Of a stretch of DNA of 64,000 bases, positions 3,721-33,490 are shown one piece after another. The notes under the pieces are model-generated. The model had not been told where the DNA came from and searched no databases. It saw only the letters and a program-made list of their open reading frames with translations. Origin of the DNA: Acidimicrobiaceae bacterium (GTDB lineage Bacteria > Actinomycetota > Acidimicrobiia > Acidimicrobiales > Ilumatobacteraceae); assembly GCA_947446815.1 (NCBI GenBank), contig CANFGT010000011.1, positions 1 through 64,000 on the forward strand, written 5' to 3'. Every line of letters starts with the position of its first letter. Within the stretch, counting starts at the first letter, position 1. The translations under genes and the position numbers were made by a program.

Positions 3721-5000
3721 TTGCAAATAGCCCGACCTCAGCAGATTGGTGGATGCTTGTAGCCATTGGAGTGCTGCTCCTATTCCTGATTGTCTTTTCC
3801 ATTGCTGAGATGGGGCTTTCCCGAATGTCGAAGCCGAAAGCGCAGGCGTTAGCCGACTCTGACGTGAAGGGTGGCAAATCCCTTTTGTTACTTGTCAGGA
3901 ATCCAGAGCGCTGGGTCAACCCCTTGCTGTTGTCCGTCAATGTCTGTCAGACGGTGCAAGCGACCTTGACCGGAGTTGTTGCTGGGCGGTTATTTGGTCC
4001 AGCGGGAGTGGTCATCGGTGTGCTGCTGAACGTTGTGGTGTTTTTTGTTTTTGCCGAAGCCGTACCGAAGACATATGCAGTGATTCACTCAGATCGCGCA
4101 GCTCTCTCCACTGCTCCTCTGATTTCCGCACTGGCAAAGTTTTGGCCGTTACGCAAGATGTCTGCGGCGCTGATCGGTCTGACGAATGTTGTGGTGAAAG
4201 GAAAGGGTCTTGAGCAAGGCCCCTTCATTGGCGAGCAGGAATTCTTAGGAATTGTGGAAGCAGCCGCCGAAGAAGAAATCATCGAACATGAAGAGCGGGA
4301 ACTCATCGAATCAATCATTGAATTTGGTGACACAGTTGTACGCGAAATCATGCGTCCTCGGCCCGACATTGTTCATGTAGACGCTGGAACTACCGTCGAT
4401 GCTGCCCTTGATGAAGCCTTCGAACACGGCGTGAGTCGTCTGCCTGTGATGCACGAAGATGAAGAAGGAAATCAGGATGTTCTCGGAGTCGCCTACACCA
4501 AAGATTTGATGATTCGTAGTCGTGCTGGTGGTGGGGCTGAATTGGTGGACTCTCTTGTGCGCCCCGCTGTCGTGATACCTGAGTCGAAATCAGTGGCGAA
4601 ATTGATGCGCGAGATGCAGCGTGATCATTTCCACATGGCAATTGTTGCCGATGAATACGGAAGTATCGCCGGTCTCGTGACCTTGGAAGATTGTCTCGAA
4701 GAGCTTGTTGGCGAAATTGTCGATGAACATGACGATGAAGTTGCCATGATTCGTCAACTTCCCAATGGTGTTTCGTTAGTCGATGCAGGACTTTCGATAT
4801 CGGAATTCAATGACCACTTCAAGGTGTCGCTCGATGATGAAGAGTTCGACACTGTGGGTGGTTTTATGTTCGGTGCTTTTGAACATGTTCCCACAGTTGG
4901 TGAATCCATCGATGTTGATGGTTGGAAGATAGCTGCGGAAGTAATTGAAGGTCGTCGTATTACAACAGTACGAGTGACGCCAATCGTCCCACTTGACTAA
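3717..5000 (+). CDS. CNNM-domain membrane protein with CBS pair and CorC domain (hemolysin family)
   Basis: The 427-residue protein starts with an N-terminal DUF21/CNNM transmembrane region (about residues 10-150, three or four hydrophobic segments). Two CBS domains follow (about 200-330, containing [11 protein letters not shown] and [16 protein letters not shown]). A C-terminal CorC/transporter-associated domain ends the protein (about 345-420). Such proteins are linked to Mg2+/Co2+ homeostasis; the old name hemolysin is historical. The phoH-ybeY-CNNM order is common in bacteria. Its ATG overlaps the ybeY stop, and its own stop overlaps the convergent menE stop by four bases. Confidence 0.92.
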
Positions 5001-27461: not shown

Positions 27462-27911
27462 ATGTTGAAGCAAGGTTCAAAAGCACCCAAAATTGAGTTG
27501 CTTGATCAAAATGGTAAGCCCTGGTCGCTTGCCACTCAGGGCAAGAAGAAAATCCTTGTGTATTTCTACCCAAAGGCAGATACTCCTGGGTGCACAACGC
27601 AGTCATGTGGTCTTCGCGACATTAAAGATGAGATTGGTCGTACTGCGATCATCGGCATCAGTCCGGACAAGTTTGAAAAGCAAAAAAAGTTTGACGACAA
27701 GTATGAACTTGGATTTCCGCTACTTGCAGACACCGAACACAAAGTTGCTGAAGCTTTCAAAGTCTGGAAAGAGAAGTCAATGTACGGACGGAAATACATG
27801 GGCATTGAACGGTCCGCTTTCTTAATTCAAGAGGGTGTCGTACTTGAGGCGTGGTACAAAATTTCGCCTGCCGACACCCCGAAGAATCTTTTGAAGGCAC
27901 TCGGCAAATGA
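27462..27911 (+). CDS. bcp: Thioredoxin-dependent peroxiredoxin (Bcp/PrxQ)
   Basis: This 149-residue AhpC/TSA-fold protein has the PrxQ active site YPKADTPGCTTQSCGLRD near residue 38. The peroxidatic cysteine sits in PGCT and the second cysteine five residues later. Later motifs include GISPDKFEKQKKF and ERSAFLIQEGVV. It reduces peroxides with thioredoxin. Its stop overlaps the next start (ATGA). Confidence 0.94.
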   Translation: MLKQGSKAPKIELLDQNGKPWSLATQGKKKILVYFYPKADTPGCTTQSCGLRDIKDEIGRTAIIGISPDKFEKQKKFDDKYELGFPLLADTEHKVAEAFKVWKEKSMYGRKYMGIERSAFLIQEGVVLEAWYKISPADTPKNLLKALGK

Positions 27912-28336
27912 GTTCCTTCCCTCTCCCCATCGATGTTTTGCCGCATCGTTCGCCGTTTCTTTTCATTGACCGCATTAGCGAATTAGAGCCTGGTGTCAGA
28001 GCAGTGGGGCATTGGAAATTGAGTGGAGACGAATGGTTTTTCCCGGGTCATTTTCCAGGTCGACCCACATTGCCAGGTGTTCTCATGTGTGAGGCGATTG
28101 CGCAACTGGGTGCCTACGCGCTTTTGGTGAAGCCGGAGTTCTCCACAAAATTGCCTCTCTTCGGAGGTATTGATGGTGCACGATTCCGTCGCCAGGTTGT
28201 CCCAGGTGATGAATTGGAACTGCAGGCGGAATTGGGTCGCATTAGCGCTCGCGCCGGTAAGGGATCAGGGCGCGCATTGGTCAATGGTGAAGTTGCCTGC
28301 GAACTGGACCTGATGTTTGTTTTCGCTGATCGCTAA
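27908..28336 (+). CDS. FabZ-like 3-hydroxyacyl-ACP dehydratase
   Basis: A 142-residue hot-dog protein with DVLPHRSPFLFIDRI near residue 8 and the active-site stretch HFPGRPTLPGVLMCEAIAQLG near 48, including the catalytic His and Glu of FabZ. It would dehydrate 3-hydroxyacyl-ACP. It is close to, but on the opposite strand from, the fab operon. The ATG at 27908 overlaps the bcp stop, which decides the start; the frame runs further upstream inside bcp. Confidence 0.85.
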   Translation: MSSFPLPIDVLPHRSPFLFIDRISELEPGVRAVGHWKLSGDEWFFPGHFPGRPTLPGVLMCEAIAQLGAYALLVKPEFSTKLPLFGGIDGARFRRQVVPGDELELQAELGRISARAGKGSGRALVNGEVACELDLMFVFADR

Positions 28337-28377: not shown

Positions 28378-28944
28378 ATGACTTGGATACGTTCGCAGAT
28401 TCCGCGTCGGATTGTGGAAGATGATTTAGAACTGCGTTGTTACGAGTTAACAGACGCCTATGCGCTATCTGATGCCGTGGCAACAAGTCTTCTTGAATTG
28501 GAACCGTGGATGCCGTGGGCGAATTTTGAGCCACTGTCTTTGGAAGAGCGCGCTGAATTGATTGAGAACTGGCGCCGGGACTGGGACAAGGGTCTCGAAT
28601 TTGTTATGGGAATTTTCCGACACGGCCATCTCGTTGGTAGTTCTGGTTTTCATCTTCGCGGTGAAGTCGGTCAACTAGAAATCGGTTACTGGGTGAAATC
28701 AGAGTCCGTAGGTGAGGGGATTGCCACTCGTAGTTCTTGCACTCTGCTGGAAACTGCTTTCAATTTGCCAGAGGTAGAAGAAGTACACATTCTCCATGAC
28801 AAGGCCAATGTGAAGTCACGTCGTGTGCCTGAAAAACTGGGTTTCGAATTACTTCTCGAGCAAGAACGTGCGCCACAAACATCTGGAGATTCTGGAATCG
28901 CGTGTCTCTGGTCGATGACTAGAGACAGATGGGCAATGCTCTAA
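28378..28944 (+). CDS. GNAT family N-acetyltransferase (RimJ/RimL type)
   Basis: The 188-residue protein has the GNAT fold in the RimJ/RimL style: LELRCYELTDAYALSDAV at the start, VGSSGFHLRGEVGQLEIGYWV in the centre and NVKSRRVPEKLGFELLLEQ near residue 145. It probably acetylates a protein N-terminus or a small amine. The substrate is not determined. Its end overlaps the convergent fabF stop by four bases. Confidence 0.85.
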   Translation: MTWIRSQIPRRIVEDDLELRCYELTDAYALSDAVATSLLELEPWMPWANFEPLSLEERAELIENWRRDWDKGLEFVMGIFRHGHLVGSSGFHLRGEVGQLEIGYWVKSESVGEGIATRSSCTLLETAFNLPEVEEVHILHDKANVKSRRVPEKLGFELLLEQERAPQTSGDSGIACLWSMTRDRWAML

Positions 28945-30125
28945 GAGGCTGGAGCGATGATGATGGAGCCGTTGTGGCCACCAAAACCAAAGTTGTTGGA
29001 GATGGTGGGTCCAGGAGTCCAATCGCGACCCTCTCCGATAACAAGGTCGATGCTCATCGCAGGGTCCAGCACTGTTGTACCCGCCGTTGGAGGGATGATC
29101 TTGTGTTCAAAGGACAGCAAAACTTGAGCCGCTTCGAGTGCACCTGCTGCACCTAACGCATGGCCAGTGACGCCTTTACCGCTAGTGACAGCAACAGACT
29201 TTGCCCCAAACACGTCTGTGACAGCCTGAGCCTCTGCTGAATCGTTGAGGGGAGTGGAAGTTCCGTGAGCATTAACGAGGACGATGTCTGTGGCAGCCAA
29301 GCCGGCATCGTCCAATGCAAGGTGCATGCACTTGATGGCGCCGGTGCCGCCTGGTGCAGGAGCAGTGATGTGATGTGCATCAGCGTTGCTGCCCGAGCCG
29401 AGGATCTCTCCCAAAATCTTCGCACCACGAGCAACTGCAAGGTCATAGCGTTCGAGAATGAAGACAGCAGCGCCTTCGCCCATGACGAAACCATTTCGGC
29501 GTTCATCAAACGGCATTGATTCACCTGTTGACGAGAGTGCCGTCATATTGCCAAAGCCTGCAAGAGATGTTGCGGTCGCCGCGCATTCGGAACCACCAGA
29601 TGCCACTGCATCACAACGACCCCAAGCGATGAGTCGTGCTGCGTAGCCCAAGGCATGTGTGCCGGCGGCGCAAGCGGTGCAGATTGTTTCATTAGGTCCC
29701 TGTAGCCCGTAGCGCATTGAAATTGCTGCACCCGAAGCGTTGGCCATCATCATGGGAACAAGGAAAGGGGAGACTCTGCGCTCGCCTTTGTCGAGACGAA
29801 TGAGTATTTGCTCTTCCAGCGTGTGAAGTCCACCAATACCCGTCGCAAAGATTGTTCCGAAACGGGATGGATCGACGCCGATGTCTCCGGCCTGGCTGAA
29901 AGCCTCTGCGGCCGCTGCTAGAGCAAGTTGTTCGACACGGTCTGCTCGACGTGCGTCTTTCGGGCTATCGAAGAATGGAAGAGGATCCCAGTCATCAATC
30001 GTGAGAGACGTCGTGCCATTTATTCCAGGACCAAAGAGTCCCTTCCAATAGTTCTCTTTACCGTGGCCGCAAGGGGCAACGACTCCAAGACCAGTAATAG
30101 CAACGCGATGTCCAACACCATTCAT
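28941..30125 (-). CDS. fabF: 3-Oxoacyl-ACP synthase II
   Basis: This 394-residue thiolase-fold condensing enzyme has the active cysteine in ICTACAAGTHALG near residue 150 and histidines in VNAHGTSTPLND and TGHALGAAG, completing the Cys-His-His triad of FabF. It elongates acyl-ACP with malonyl-ACP. It is the last gene of the minus-strand fab operon, 18 bases after acpP. Confidence 0.96.
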   Translation of the reverse strand: MNGVGHRVAITGLGVVAPCGHGKENYWKGLFGPGINGTTSLTIDDWDPLPFFDSPKDARRADRVEQLALAAAAEAFSQAGDIGVDPSRFGTIFATGIGGLHTLEEQILIRLDKGERRVSPFLVPMMMANASGAAISMRYGLQGPNETICTACAAGTHALGYAARLIAWGRCDAVASGGSECAATATSLAGFGNMTALSSTGESMPFDERRNGFVMGEGAAVFILERYDLAVARGAKILGEILGSGSNADAHHITAPAPGGTGAIKCMHLALDDAGLAATDIVLVNAHGTSTPLNDSAEAQAVTDVFGAKSVAVTSGKGVTGHALGAAGALEAAQVLLSFEHKIIPPTAGTTVLDPAMSIDLVIGEGRDWTPGPTISNNFGFGGHNGSIIIAPAS

Positions 30126-30143: not shown

Positions 30144-30380
30144 TTAGAGCTTGCCGGAAATGATTGCGAACGCCTGACCAACTGTCTTGACGTCTGCGAG
30201 TTCCTCTTCAGGAACTTCAATGCCGAACTCTTCTTCAAGAGCCATGACAAGTTCCACCACATCGAGTGAGTCTGCATCAAGGTCGTCGGCAAAACTTGCC
30301 TCCATGGTGACCTTTGCTGCGTCGACCGAGAGTGTCTCTACTGCACACTTGACGAAGCGATCAAAATTTTCGTTGCTCAT
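30144..30380 (-). CDS. acpP: Acyl carrier protein
   Basis: A 78-residue acidic protein with the phosphopantetheine attachment serine in [20 protein letters not shown] near residue 36. It carries growing acyl chains for FabD, FabH, FabG and FabF encoded around it. A strong AAGGAGAA ribosome site precedes the ATG, fitting its need for high expression, and a 66-base gap separates it from fabG. Confidence 0.98.
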
Positions 30381-30446: not shown

Positions 30447-31151
30447 TTAGTGACCCATGCCCAAACCGCCATCCACAGGGATGACGGCGCCGGTGATGTA
30501 TCCACCGTCTGAACTAGCAAGGAAAGCGACAACACCAGCAATTTCGTCTGGAGTTGCCATCCGTTGCAGGGGCACTGCTGACGTCAGTTCCTTGAGGCGA
30601 TCTTCGCCGAGTGCTGCTGTCATGTCTGTCTCAACTGGCCCGGGTGCAACAACGTTCACAGTGATGCTGCGTGAACCAAGTTCGCGTGCAAGTGAGCGGG
30701 AAAAACCAACGAGACCGGCTTTTGATGCAGCGTAGTTTGCTTGACCTGCAGAGCCGAGTAGACCAACAACAGAAGACATCAAAATAATGCGTCCTTTGCG
30801 AGCCTTGAGCATTCCTTGAGTCGCTCGCTTCACCACACGGAATGATGCGGTGAGATTCGCGTCAATGACAGAAGCAAAATCTGTTTCGCTCATGCGCAGT
30901 AGAAGTGTGTCTTTTGTGATGCCAGCATTGGATACAAGAATCTCAACAGGACCGAAATGTTCCTCAACCGCTTTAAAGGCTGCATCAACCTGTGCTGTAT
31001 CGGTGACGTCGCATTTCACGCCAAAGAATTCAGATGGTGGCGGCGACGAGTTGTATGTGACCGCAACTTTGTCTCCAAGGGCAGCGAAACGTTGCGCGCA
31101 TGCAAGACCTATTCCGCGTGAACCACCCGTAATGAGAACGACTCTGCTCAT
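30447..31151 (-). CDS. fabG: 3-Oxoacyl-ACP reductase
   Basis: A short-chain dehydrogenase of 234 residues with the NADP-binding GGSRGIGLACAQ near residue 8, NAG near 80, the catalytic Ser in MSSVVGLLGSAG and YAASK near 145. It reduces 3-oxoacyl-ACP in fatty-acid synthesis. The ATG at 31151 overlaps the fabH stop (ATGA), so the four residues upstream in frame are not taken. Confidence 0.95.
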   Translation of the reverse strand: MSRVVLITGGSRGIGLACAQRFAALGDKVAVTYNSSPPPSEFFGVKCDVTDTAQVDAAFKAVEEHFGPVEILVSNAGITKDTLLLRMSETDFASVIDANLTASFRVVKRATQGMLKARKGRIILMSSVVGLLGSAGQANYAASKAGLVGFSRSLARELGSRSITVNVVAPGPVETDMTAALGEDRLKELTSAVPLQRMATPDEIAGVVAFLASSDGGYITGAVIPVDGGLGMGH

Positions 31152-32098
31152 TCGGCACCCCATTCAAGAATCGCGCTAGCAGCGGTCATTCCAGCACCGA
31201 AACCTACGAGCATGACAAGGTCGCCTTGCTTGGGCCTGGTCTGGTTGAACTCGCCAAACAGTGCCAATGGAATGGAAGCCGATGATGTGTTGCCGGTCTC
31301 GTGGATGACAACTGATGCACGATCCATGGAGATACCCAGGCGATCACATGCCGCGCTGATGATGCGAATATTGGCTTGGTGGGGAACAATGACATTGATC
31401 TGATCTGCTGTGACTCCAGCGTGGGTCATTGATTTTTGTGCGCTATCGACCATGATGCGAACGGCGCGACGGAAAACTTCTTTTCCGTCCATGTGCAGGG
31501 TTTCGCCAATATTGGCGTACAAAATTTCTTCAGCAGATCCATCGGCGTCGAGGTCCCATCCGAGCAGTTGACCTGGACCTGATGTTGCTTCCAATACGGC
31601 AGCGCCGGAACCATCAGCAAAAAGAATTGCCGTATTGCGATCAGTCCAGTCAGTGATTCGACGAAGTGTGTCTGTGCCGATGAGCAAGACCTTTTCTGCT
31701 CCCATTGCGATGAGACCGTGAGCATTAACAAGTCCGTACACAAAGCCTGAGCAGGCAGCGTTGATGTCGAAAGCTCCACATCGAAGCCCTAATGCATTCT
31801 GCACCGTTGCCGATGTTGCAGGAACAGTGCGATCTGGTGTGGTGGTTGCGAGAACAAGCGCGTCGATCGACGTGGGGTCAATGCCTGCCATCTTTAATGC
31901 CGCACCGCCACTAATAATGCTGAGCTCGGCTGTGCTACCGCCAATATGTCGACGGTGAATGCCAGTACGTTCGCGTACCCATTCATCGCTTGTATCGATC
32001 GCCTTGGCAAGATCTTCGTTGGTGACGGTCTCGTGACCAAGGGCGGTACCCCAGCCAGTGAATCGTGCACCGCGAACGTTGTTTGGAATCTTTGGCAT
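31148..32098 (-). CDS. fabH: 3-Oxoacyl-ACP synthase III
   Basis: The 316-residue enzyme has the FabH triad: Cys116 in FDINAACSGFVYGL, His in IVPHQANIRI near 240 and Asn in ETGNTSSASIP near 270. RERTGIHRRHIGG lies near the N-terminus. It starts chains by condensing acetyl-CoA or a branched acyl-CoA with malonyl-ACP. It is placed second in the operon, 15 bases after fabD. Confidence 0.96.
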   Translation of the reverse strand: MPKIPNNVRGARFTGWGTALGHETVTNEDLAKAIDTSDEWVRERTGIHRRHIGGSTAELSIISGGAALKMAGIDPTSIDALVLATTTPDRTVPATSATVQNALGLRCGAFDINAACSGFVYGLVNAHGLIAMGAEKVLLIGTDTLRRITDWTDRNTAILFADGSGAAVLEATSGPGQLLGWDLDADGSAEEILYANIGETLHMDGKEVFRRAVRIMVDSAQKSMTHAGVTADQINVIVPHQANIRIISAACDRLGISMDRASVVIHETGNTSSASIPLALFGEFNQTRPKQGDLVMLVGFGAGMTAASAILEWGAE

Positions 32099-32113: not shown

Positions 32114-33289
32114 TTACAGCGAACGCAACCAGGCGATGGGTTGATGTGTAGTCACTCGCTCGCCCTCGACTGCGATGAAATTTTGAATAACCCCAGCAAA
32201 CGGGGAGCGCACTTCAGTGTCTCCCACGTGGCCGATTACTCGTCCGACTCCAATTGTCGAATCAATGCCCACAGTTGCATCAGGGCTGAAAACGCCTGCA
32301 GCAGGGCTCACAACAAGACGCTCCACTGCGAAGAGATGTTCGCCTTCTAATTGGGCTGCCCCAACGGGAGACGATGCGTTCACCCATTCGATGAGTTTGT
32401 CGAGTTCTTCTGGGGTGGCAACAGAAATTGTCCGTGCGTTTTCCACGGTGCGCTTTGCCATGCCTGTTAGGACACCTCCAGGACCGAGTTCTACGAAACC
32501 GCTGACTCCGAGCTCGCTCATGGTGAGCAAACAATGCTTCCATCGCACAGGGCTCGACAACTGTGCAGATAAAAGAGAGGACCATTCTTCGCCCGATGAG
32601 TGTGCAATTGCGTCAACATTCGAAATCACAGGTACTTCAACATCGCGCGGTGATGCCAGTGCAATTGCAGTGCGAAGACGTTCACGCGCTGCGGTCATGA
32701 ACGGCGTATGGAAAGCACCCGATACTTGGAGCGGCATAATCTTTTTTGCGCCAAGTTCTTTTGCATGTTCTCCTGCTGAGGCAACGCCAGCGGGTGAGCC
32801 TGCAATCACCACTTGTCCTGGTGCATTGAAATTCGCTACCCACACCTCTGCATCTGCACGCCGACAGGCAACCTCGACGAGATCGTCATCAAGCCCGAGC
32901 ACTGCTGCCATGGTGCCAGGAGACGCGGAGCCAGCTTCATGCATGGCATCGGCGCGCTCGACAACGAGCCTCACTCCATCTTCAAAAGAAAGAGCACCGG
33001 TGGCGGTCAACGCTGTGTATTCACCCAGGCTGTGGCCAGCGCAGAAACTTGGCACGATGCCCAGTCGCTCGACTGCATCCAACACCATGAGAGACGATAC
33101 GAAAGTGGTGAGTTGTGCGTTGCGAGTGTCTTTGAGTTCGTCCGCATCTGAATCAAGAAGGAGCGCACCGACATCACGACCTGCAACATCTGACGCCTCA
33201 TCGACTAATTCCCAGCTTTCATGTCCCACCCAAGGGCGACCCATTCCGGGTCTCTGGGAGCCTTGTCCTGGGAAAGTGAACGCAAGCAT
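32114..33289 (-). CDS. fabD: Malonyl-CoA:ACP transacylase with C-terminal biotinyl/lipoyl-like domain
   Basis: Residues 1-305 are a complete FabD: FTFPGQGSQRPGMG, nucleophile GHSLGEYTAL near 87, FNAPGQVVIAGS near 155 and the histidine in VSGAFHTPFM near 193. FabD loads malonyl onto ACP. About 80 extra residues follow. From EHLFAVERLVVSPAAG to FAGVIQNFIAVEGERVTTHQ and PIAWL they look like a biotinyl/lipoyl (hammerhead) fold. The turn where biotin carriers have the modified lysine (EAMKM) is shortened to GHVGDTEV and has no lysine, so the domain is unlikely to be biotinylated. It is the first gene of the operon. Confidence 0.92.
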   Translation of the reverse strand: MLAFTFPGQGSQRPGMGRPWVGHESWELVDEASDVAGRDVGALLLDSDADELKDTRNAQLTTFVSSLMVLDAVERLGIVPSFCAGHSLGEYTALTATGALSFEDGVRLVVERADAMHEAGSASPGTMAAVLGLDDDLVEVACRRADAEVWVANFNAPGQVVIAGSPAGVASAGEHAKELGAKKIMPLQVSGAFHTPFMTAARERLRTAIALASPRDVEVPVISNVDAIAHSSGEEWSSLLSAQLSSPVRWKHCLLTMSELGVSGFVELGPGGVLTGMAKRTVENARTISVATPEELDKLIEWVNASSPVGAAQLEGEHLFAVERLVVSPAAGVFSPDATVGIDSTIGVGRVIGHVGDTEVRSPFAGVIQNFIAVEGERVTTHQPIAWLRSL

Positions 33290-33381: not shown

Positions 33382-33464
33382 GCCCGAGTGGCGGAATGGC
33401 AGACGCGACGGACTCAAAATCCGTTGTCCGGAAGGGCGTGTGGGTTCGAGTCCCACCTCGGGCA
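33382..33464 (+). tRNA. tRNA-Leu (anticodon CAA)
   Basis: A type II tRNA folds here. The acceptor GCCCGAG pairs with CTCGGGC, the anticodon stem ACGGA pairs with TCCGT around the loop CTCAAAA (anticodon CAA, codon UUG), and there is a long variable arm and a T loop TTCGAGT. The discriminator is A33464; the next bases are CCC, so CCA is not encoded. It lies between the divergent fab operon and the small coiled-coil gene. Confidence 0.96.
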
Positions 33465-33490
33465 CCCAGGTGATTCATACACTTGCTCCT

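Follow-up and report, generated by a model that had tools for sequence, protein, structure and literature searches.

The window, i.e., the whole analyzed stretch of 64,000 nucleotides, carries a minus-strand operon with the gene order fabD-fabH-fabG-acpP-fabF, named according to NCBIfam models. Its first gene, fabD (32114–33289, stop codon at 32114–32116), is an open reading frame of 391 aa identified by TIGR00128. On the same strand, fabH is the next operon gene (31148–32098; TIGR00747, 302.4 bits versus a cut-off of 292.1), followed by fabG (30447–31163; NF009466, 249.2 bits versus 222), acpP, which encodes an acyl carrier protein of 78 aa (30144–30380; TIGR00517, 84.7 bits versus 70.45), and fabF (28941–30125; NF005589, 395.9 bits versus 387; the stricter TIGR03150 stays below its own cut-off). 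Two plus-strand features flank the operon: fabZ (27851–28336, named by NCBIfam) lies beyond it, and a tRNA-Leu (caa) at 33382–33466 is located just upstream of fabD.

Residues 1–305 of FabD (32375–33289) form the catalytic region, a malonyl-CoA:ACP transacylase recognized by PF00698 and by TIGR00128 (residues 1–284, 280.5 bits, curated cut-off 260.9); the mean pLDDT of the whole-protein model is 88. GHSLG at residues 85–89, which we take to be the FabD nucleophile motif, and H194, presumably the catalytic histidine, are both present and invariant in the FabD alignment. The complete catalytic domain is common to FabD proteins, but the C-terminal part is an addition: in all 26 solved relatives with E ≤ 1e-40 among the matches listed, the match ends at or before residue 303 and the tail lies outside the alignment. 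This tail consists of a linker (residues 306–321; 32327–32374), read as disordered at residues 308–321 due to pLDDT values below 50 in the AlphaFold2 model of whole FabD, and of a lysine-less biotinyl-fold domain (residues 322–391; 32117–32326), which we refer to as the module. A frameshift or mis-called stop codon was considered as the source of the tail and excluded, since the tail is in frame and the match runs into it in all 80 loci kept (best hits only) as well as in many genomes of the order; one of the 80, L067, is ended at residue 383 by its contig.

Fold of the C-terminal domain and its missing lysine

The assignment of the domain draws on profile matches, AlphaFold2 models, structure comparisons and a lysine count. 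In the model of whole FabD, residues 322–391 are all-beta with block pLDDT values of 80–95 except for the last residue, and the core blocks of the tail modeled alone reach 97–99. The top structural match of the tail model is 4hr7_G, the E. coli biotin carrier in complex with biotin carboxylase (Z 12.3, rmsd 0.9 over 67 residues), and Foldseek retrieves the Pyrococcus biotin carrier 5gua (E 5.6e-5). Thus, the first-pass annotation, which had placed a biotinyl-like domain behind a complete malonyl transferase, is borne out by a predicted barrel-sandwich hybrid following the TIGR00128 region. The efflux adaptor BesA comes close behind, with a Foldseek E-value of 1.5e-4 and a Z of 11.5 (rmsd 4.7 over 83 residues), less than one Z unit away. 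Since efflux adaptors are nearly equal in rank, the fold by itself does not single out biotin carriers.

The window's tail gives a half-match to Pfam Biotin_lipoyl (PF00364) of 15.2–15.4 bits, below the gathering cut-off of 22.1. Five of ten free-standing relatives scanned exceed this cut-off (23.7–26.9 bits), and PF00364 was matched at E ≤ 1 by 33 of 37 relatives. A profile built from 37 rows picks up solved biotin carriers (2d5d, 5.5e-6; 1bdo, 3.5e-4), aligned with a gap of four residues at their EAMKM turn. Ranked by whole-sequence E-value, the lipoyl protein 7b9k (5.7e-7) with its three individually weak repeats comes first. A lipoyl or adaptor origin instead of a biotinyl one was also considered; it is disfavored by the single-domain scores and by structure, as carboxylase carriers match better in both. 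Given the lipoyl protein in the top row and the close efflux adaptors, descent from one biotinyl/lipoyl subtype is unproven. When the window tail, 37 members and 10 free modules were scanned against Pfam and NCBIfam, no family model specific to the module came up, and weak matches were to HlyD, RnfC, YqeB and peptidase M23 types. As a side observation, 20 of the 37 modules match positions 162–212 of TIGR03309 (YqeB, a selenium-molybdenum maturation protein) at E ≤ 0.001, best 4.7e-8, which suggests that another barrel-sandwich domain may be present in this stretch of YqeB.

With the biotinyl domain of BCCP (PF00364) the module shares the barrel-sandwich fold and profile similarity; unlike BCCP, it does not carry the lysine to which biotin would be attached. 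When modules were aligned with four true carriers without any motif filter, a lysine at the biotin column was found in none of 208 (217 sequences in all; nine rows of fewer than 55 residues, most of them shortened at a stop, were left out), and a lysine within three columns of it in five of the 208. In FabD of the window the site falls into a beta-hairpin at residues 351–361 (32207–32239), the place of the AMKM lysine in biotin carriers, which is shorter here and lysine-free. The first-pass annotation had reported a short turn without lysine. The lack of lysine is general, but the shortness is not and goes mainly with fusion to FabD: a gap occupies the biotin column in 127 of 135 fused sequences (80 of the 135 being close relatives), versus none of 73 modules not fused to FabD, all of which keep a residue there, in 57 cases glycine. 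The tail therefore represents, in its modeled structure, a carrier fold without the biotin lysine. R378 and W387 occur without exception in 37 modules, fused as well as free, and are missing from all four true carriers aligned, suggesting a contact surface of the module's own. Some divergent members (L222, L234) do not retain these two residues.

Fused and free forms and their gene neighbors

The extension is widely conserved in relatives; a lack of conservation, like a fold other than the barrel-sandwich hybrid, would have spoken against the first-pass annotation. Using FabD as query, a match was obtained in 91 of 99 genomes of the order, and many of the strongest matches extend to residue 388–391. 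In the class, 115 of 296 genomes have a strong profile match (E below about 1e-8 to 1e-9); with a looser limit of E ≤ 1e-3 the number rises to 203, but these rows apparently include true biotin carboxylases (600-aa frames) and were not used. At the level of the phylum, 75 of 396 matched at E ≤ 1e-6, and 62 of these lie below 1e-8, 42 of them outside the class; the weaker phylum rows include true biotin carriers. Two candidates, L245 and L247, were rejected as true BCCPs with LKV/MKI lysines.

Many relatives encode the tail as an ORF of its own, approx. 86–101 codons long with the likely start picked by eye, right behind fabD; a GGAGG-type site and a start near or overlapping the fabD stop codon are frequent. 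Free modules are small genes (approx. 90 aa) in this class and in other actinomycetote classes, in the order fabD-module-fabH-fabG-acpP-fabF. Because the module is so often a separate gene, it looks like an independent protein that was joined to FabD in some lineages. According to one quick FabD tree, the free or fused state switched at least three times, by fusion or splitting, the fused groups being the window's large clade, family f64, family f104, and f121 with f138. Besides, three fab operons (L126, L130, L139) have a tail-less fabD and no module match in the locus, and two genomes with a fused FabD (G069, G015) also possess a second, tail-less fabD copy (L140 and L141, respectively). A divergent lysine-less module was further seen in G120 (L156) and G115 (L157) in an efp-nusB-pyrR neighborhood without fab or acc genes, which we read as aroQ-pepP-efp-nusB-phosphodiesterase-pyrR-pyrB-pyrC; accB-accC is found near efp in other bacteria.

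Gene neighbors were compiled for 136 module loci. The module is fused to FabD in 56 of them, separate and directly behind fabD in 68, and without fabD upstream in 12. Downstream, 121 loci continue with fabH, 7 with fabG and 2 with accD; 6 show no gene of those sought. Consequently, fabD (124/136) and fabH (121/136) are the commonest neighbors and accD is rarer. As the loci were picked by module presence, these shares describe contexts, not frequency, and a few genomes give two loci. The set leaves out L168, whose fused tail is real but was removed by a crude motif filter, four real-looking tails above the E-value cut-off (L237, L241, L244, L246), and the true BCCP of L245.

A connection to acetyl-CoA carboxylase (ACC) emerges at the far end of the operon and in a few rearranged loci. 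accD is located behind fabF in 21 of the 41 module loci having at least 300 bp of room. Separate modules account for 16 of these 21 and modules without fabD upstream for five; none of the seven fused loci with room has accD in this position. One fused locus outside this count, L244, does have accD behind fabF. In two of the 136 loci (L173, L231) the module directly precedes accD and no fab gene adjoins. The genome of L173, an assembly of 470 contigs with 5% contamination, has its fab operon on another contig (L250), and no module was seen between fabD and fabH there. Four loci without fabD upstream (L232, L238, L240, L248) show the order module-fabH-fabF-accD, with acpP seen in L238; in each of the three of these genomes that were looked up, fabD is on another contig. 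Carboxyl_trans (Pfam) was confirmed on the AccDs of L173, L231 and L254. Outside the class, accD is often not behind fabF (L215–L218, L220, L221, L224, L227, L228, L230, L242). In L155, a separate module lies between fabD and fabG, and no fabH was found in the locus.

AccD types and co-occurrence with the module

Many module genomes carry two large AccDs. The ACC epsilon family (PF13822) was found in 74 of 296 class genomes at E ≤ 0.01, 25 of them over the cut-off, and all 82 epsilon rows were compared with 150 AccDs among the matches listed (57 of the 82 have no listed AccD next to them). Within 300 bp, an epsilon gene accompanies 25 of the 46 AccDs with 45–48% identity to the AccD of L173 but none of the 104 with at least 49% identity, among the matches listed. 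When only genomes with any epsilon row are considered, the contrast is 25 of 26 versus 0 of 33, again among the matches listed; 16 of the 25 adjoining epsilon rows are above the PF13822 cut-off. A tree of 59 AccDs agrees with this division: a single branch with an SH-aLRT of 99 separates 19 fab-operon or module-paired AccDs (FAS-II type) from nine epsilon-paired ones. The genome of the window (G000) encodes a BC-BCCP protein of 587 aa (L259), an AccD of the FAS-II type (L254) and one of the epsilon group (L274), and PF13822 gave no match in this genome.

Further peculiarities were seen in these carboxyltransferases. The Carboxyl_trans match of two FAS-II-type AccDs, L254:3424–4887 (minus strand) and L173:4142–5602 (plus strand; the L173 AccD query began at 4280), starts at profile position 68–69; that of the other AccD of G000 (L274) starts from position 2 and that of L231 from position 10. 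Judging from sequence, the N-terminal stretch of FAS-II-type AccDs may be missing or changed, and such an altered N-terminus might bear on the choice of a small partner. G000 also encodes a 624 aa protein (L260:1086–2960, minus strand) with an N-terminal biotinyl domain containing MKM ahead of a carboxyltransferase domain, an order that appears unusual.

Using the AccD identity cut, the 296 class genomes comprise 98 with both module and FAS-II-type AccD, 17 with the module only, four with this AccD only and 177 with neither. In all four AccD-only genomes the fab operon is broken by contig ends (L255–L258). Re-examination of the module-only genomes recovered a FAS-II-type AccD in five more (G002, G011, G071 and G298, all four placed in the AccD tree, and G299, where it is partial; that of G011 sits on a long branch and its place is unsure), raising the number to 103 of 115 module-bearing genomes; this step was one-sided, as it covered module-bearing genomes only. 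Among the remaining 12, nine have an epsilon-group AccD (G031, G039, G081, G338, G113, G115, G118, G120, G205), and three (G097, G128, G283) are outside the AccD tree. Given these nine module-bearing genomes whose tree-placed AccD is of the epsilon group, a strict association of the module with a single AccD does not hold.

Divergence of the module appears to follow the AccD present. The median module score is 67.1 bits in the 12 genomes without an identified FAS-II-type AccD versus 105.2 bits in the other 103. Four fused tails from genomes without this AccD lie 5 to 13 identity points under the expectation from FabD divergence, compared to a standard deviation of 6.4 for the other 21 rows (4 versus 21 rows, p 0.002). 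In G058, which is nested within the fused clade, FabD lacks the tail and the best-matching AccD falls into the epsilon group. Of 25 tails compared, that of G011 has diverged most, and the FAS-II AccD of this genome sits on a very long branch. On the other hand, G046 has a FAS-II-type AccD, yet a tail-less fabD and no module match (a draft of 670 contigs, 88% complete). The co-occurrence statistics ignore relatedness and were made after the pattern had been seen. Co-occurrence is partly co-inheritance of the operon, and operon membership alone could cause it.

Possible function of the module

The first-pass annotation had proposed a docking or regulatory module for ACC. This proposal is partly supported: gene neighborhoods, the type of AccD and co-occurrence all point to ACC, and the link of the module to the enzyme is circumstantial. 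We see an even chance that the module is a pseudo-biotin-carrier accessory subunit, serving assembly or docking, of an ACC dedicated to fatty-acid synthesis, with coupling by proximity where it is fused to FabD. The module would contact ACC, most likely through the carboxyltransferase AccD (or AccA), and this contact would help assembly or activity of the enzyme. In many relatives it is a free protein of approx. 90 aa encoded within the fab operon. In the lineage of the window, the putatively disordered linker fuses it to FabD, so that the tail would keep bound ACC next to the transacylase that consumes malonyl-CoA. Since the module is a separate small gene in the same operon in relatives, the tail probably ties malonyl-CoA synthesis to the first step that draws on this product.

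A different role within fatty-acid synthesis has to be weighed against the accessory subunit. The module could be a scaffold or specificity factor within FAS-II, docking FabD to FabH or to ACP without any role in ACC, and accD would then be a neighbor merely by shared pathway. The predominance of fabD before, or fused with, the module and of fabH behind it fits such a scaffold, as does the persistence of fused tails in genomes whose AccD belongs to the epsilon group. However, the module pairs with accD in L173 and L231 where no fab genes adjoin, it stands between fabD and fabG in L155 in a locus where fabH was not found, and four loci (L232, L238, L240, L248) do without fabD upstream. Moreover, tail divergence follows the type of AccD, and the fold is that of a carboxylase carrier. 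We regard a pure FAS-II scaffold as rather unlikely. The lack of lysine in a fold equal to that of the true carrier would also suit a negative regulator, i.e., a pseudo-carrier that competes with the biotin domain of AccA for sites on the carboxylase or the carboxyltransferase and so throttles the synthesis of malonyl-CoA; the BADC proteins of plants, in which the AMKL motif is missing, were first suggested as inhibitors and later as assembly ‘glue’, according to excerpts of PMC11926652. Nevertheless, membership in a biosynthetic operon and fusion to FabD would fit a constitutive partner better, and most modules have residues that the aligned true carriers lack, which speaks against a plain mimic, so a throttling role seems quite improbable.

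Barrel-sandwich domains also occur in many non-biotin proteins. Together with the weak HlyD, RnfC, YqeB and peptidase M23 matches and the efflux adaptors that rank near in fold, this leaves room for a small-molecule sensor that would regulate FabD in response to an acyl group, CoA or a different ligand. Yet carboxylase carrier domains are the best structural and single-domain profile matches, and a sensor leaves both the free-standing genes and the AccD pattern unexplained; we give this explanation very little weight. It is scarcely credible that the module is a functionless, decaying relic of a biotin carrier. A sub-threshold Pfam score in the window and lower scores in some lineages would fit decay, but the module is conserved across orders and classes, is retained both free and fused, and is predicted to fold well.

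Returning to the accessory subunit of ACC, comparable proteins are known. BADC proteins of the plastid heteromeric ACC are described in excerpts of PMC11926652 as non-catalytic assembly or regulatory subunits without the AMKL motif and are called unique to the plant enzyme. Like the module, they are relatives of the biotin carrier without biotinylation motif and, as we propose for the module, tied to the ACC of fatty-acid synthesis (PMC11926652, in the same excerpts). Unlike BADC, the module family is bacterial, is encoded in FAS-II operons and is fused to FabD in several lineages. We claim neither special kinship with BADC proteins nor membership in their family. The second counterpart is the ACC epsilon subunit (AccE, PF13822), which resembles the proposed module as a small non-catalytic partner of the carboxyltransferase; in Thermobifida it associates with the carboxyltransferase and raises activity, as excerpts of PMC7835884 state. 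Unlike epsilon, none of ten free modules matched PF13822 at E ≤ 10, the family is absent among the matches listed for 37 module members (25 families), and epsilon genes in this class are found beside the other AccD group; membership is not claimed here either. Tentatively, and with more doubt than for an accessory role as such, a lysine-free carrier might have taken the place of epsilon in the FAS-II ACC of Actinomycetota, as a counterpart of BADC, and the fusion with FabD might form a complex for the hand-over of malonyl-CoA.

The literature was searched for precedents, with subscription papers mostly outside reach. Among the papers listed, we found no description of the module and no bacterial precedent, no FabD fused to a carrier domain and no report on FabD-ACC channelling. 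Searches for lysine-less biotinyl domains and for Acidimicrobiia in combination with FabD and ACC gave no results, those on the FAS-II operon in actinobacteria nothing on the module, and those on non-biotinylated BCCP-like proteins in bacteria listed plant work.

In fatty-acid synthesis, the committed step is the one catalyzed by ACC. A module that is sometimes free near accD and sometimes part of FabD offers a natural fusion by which a direct hand-over of malonyl-CoA from ACC to FabD becomes testable. If our reading is true, lysine-less accessory carriers, called plant-only in excerpts of PMC11926652, would extend to bacteria, and an overlooked small gene would be added to the FAS-II operon of many Actinomycetota.
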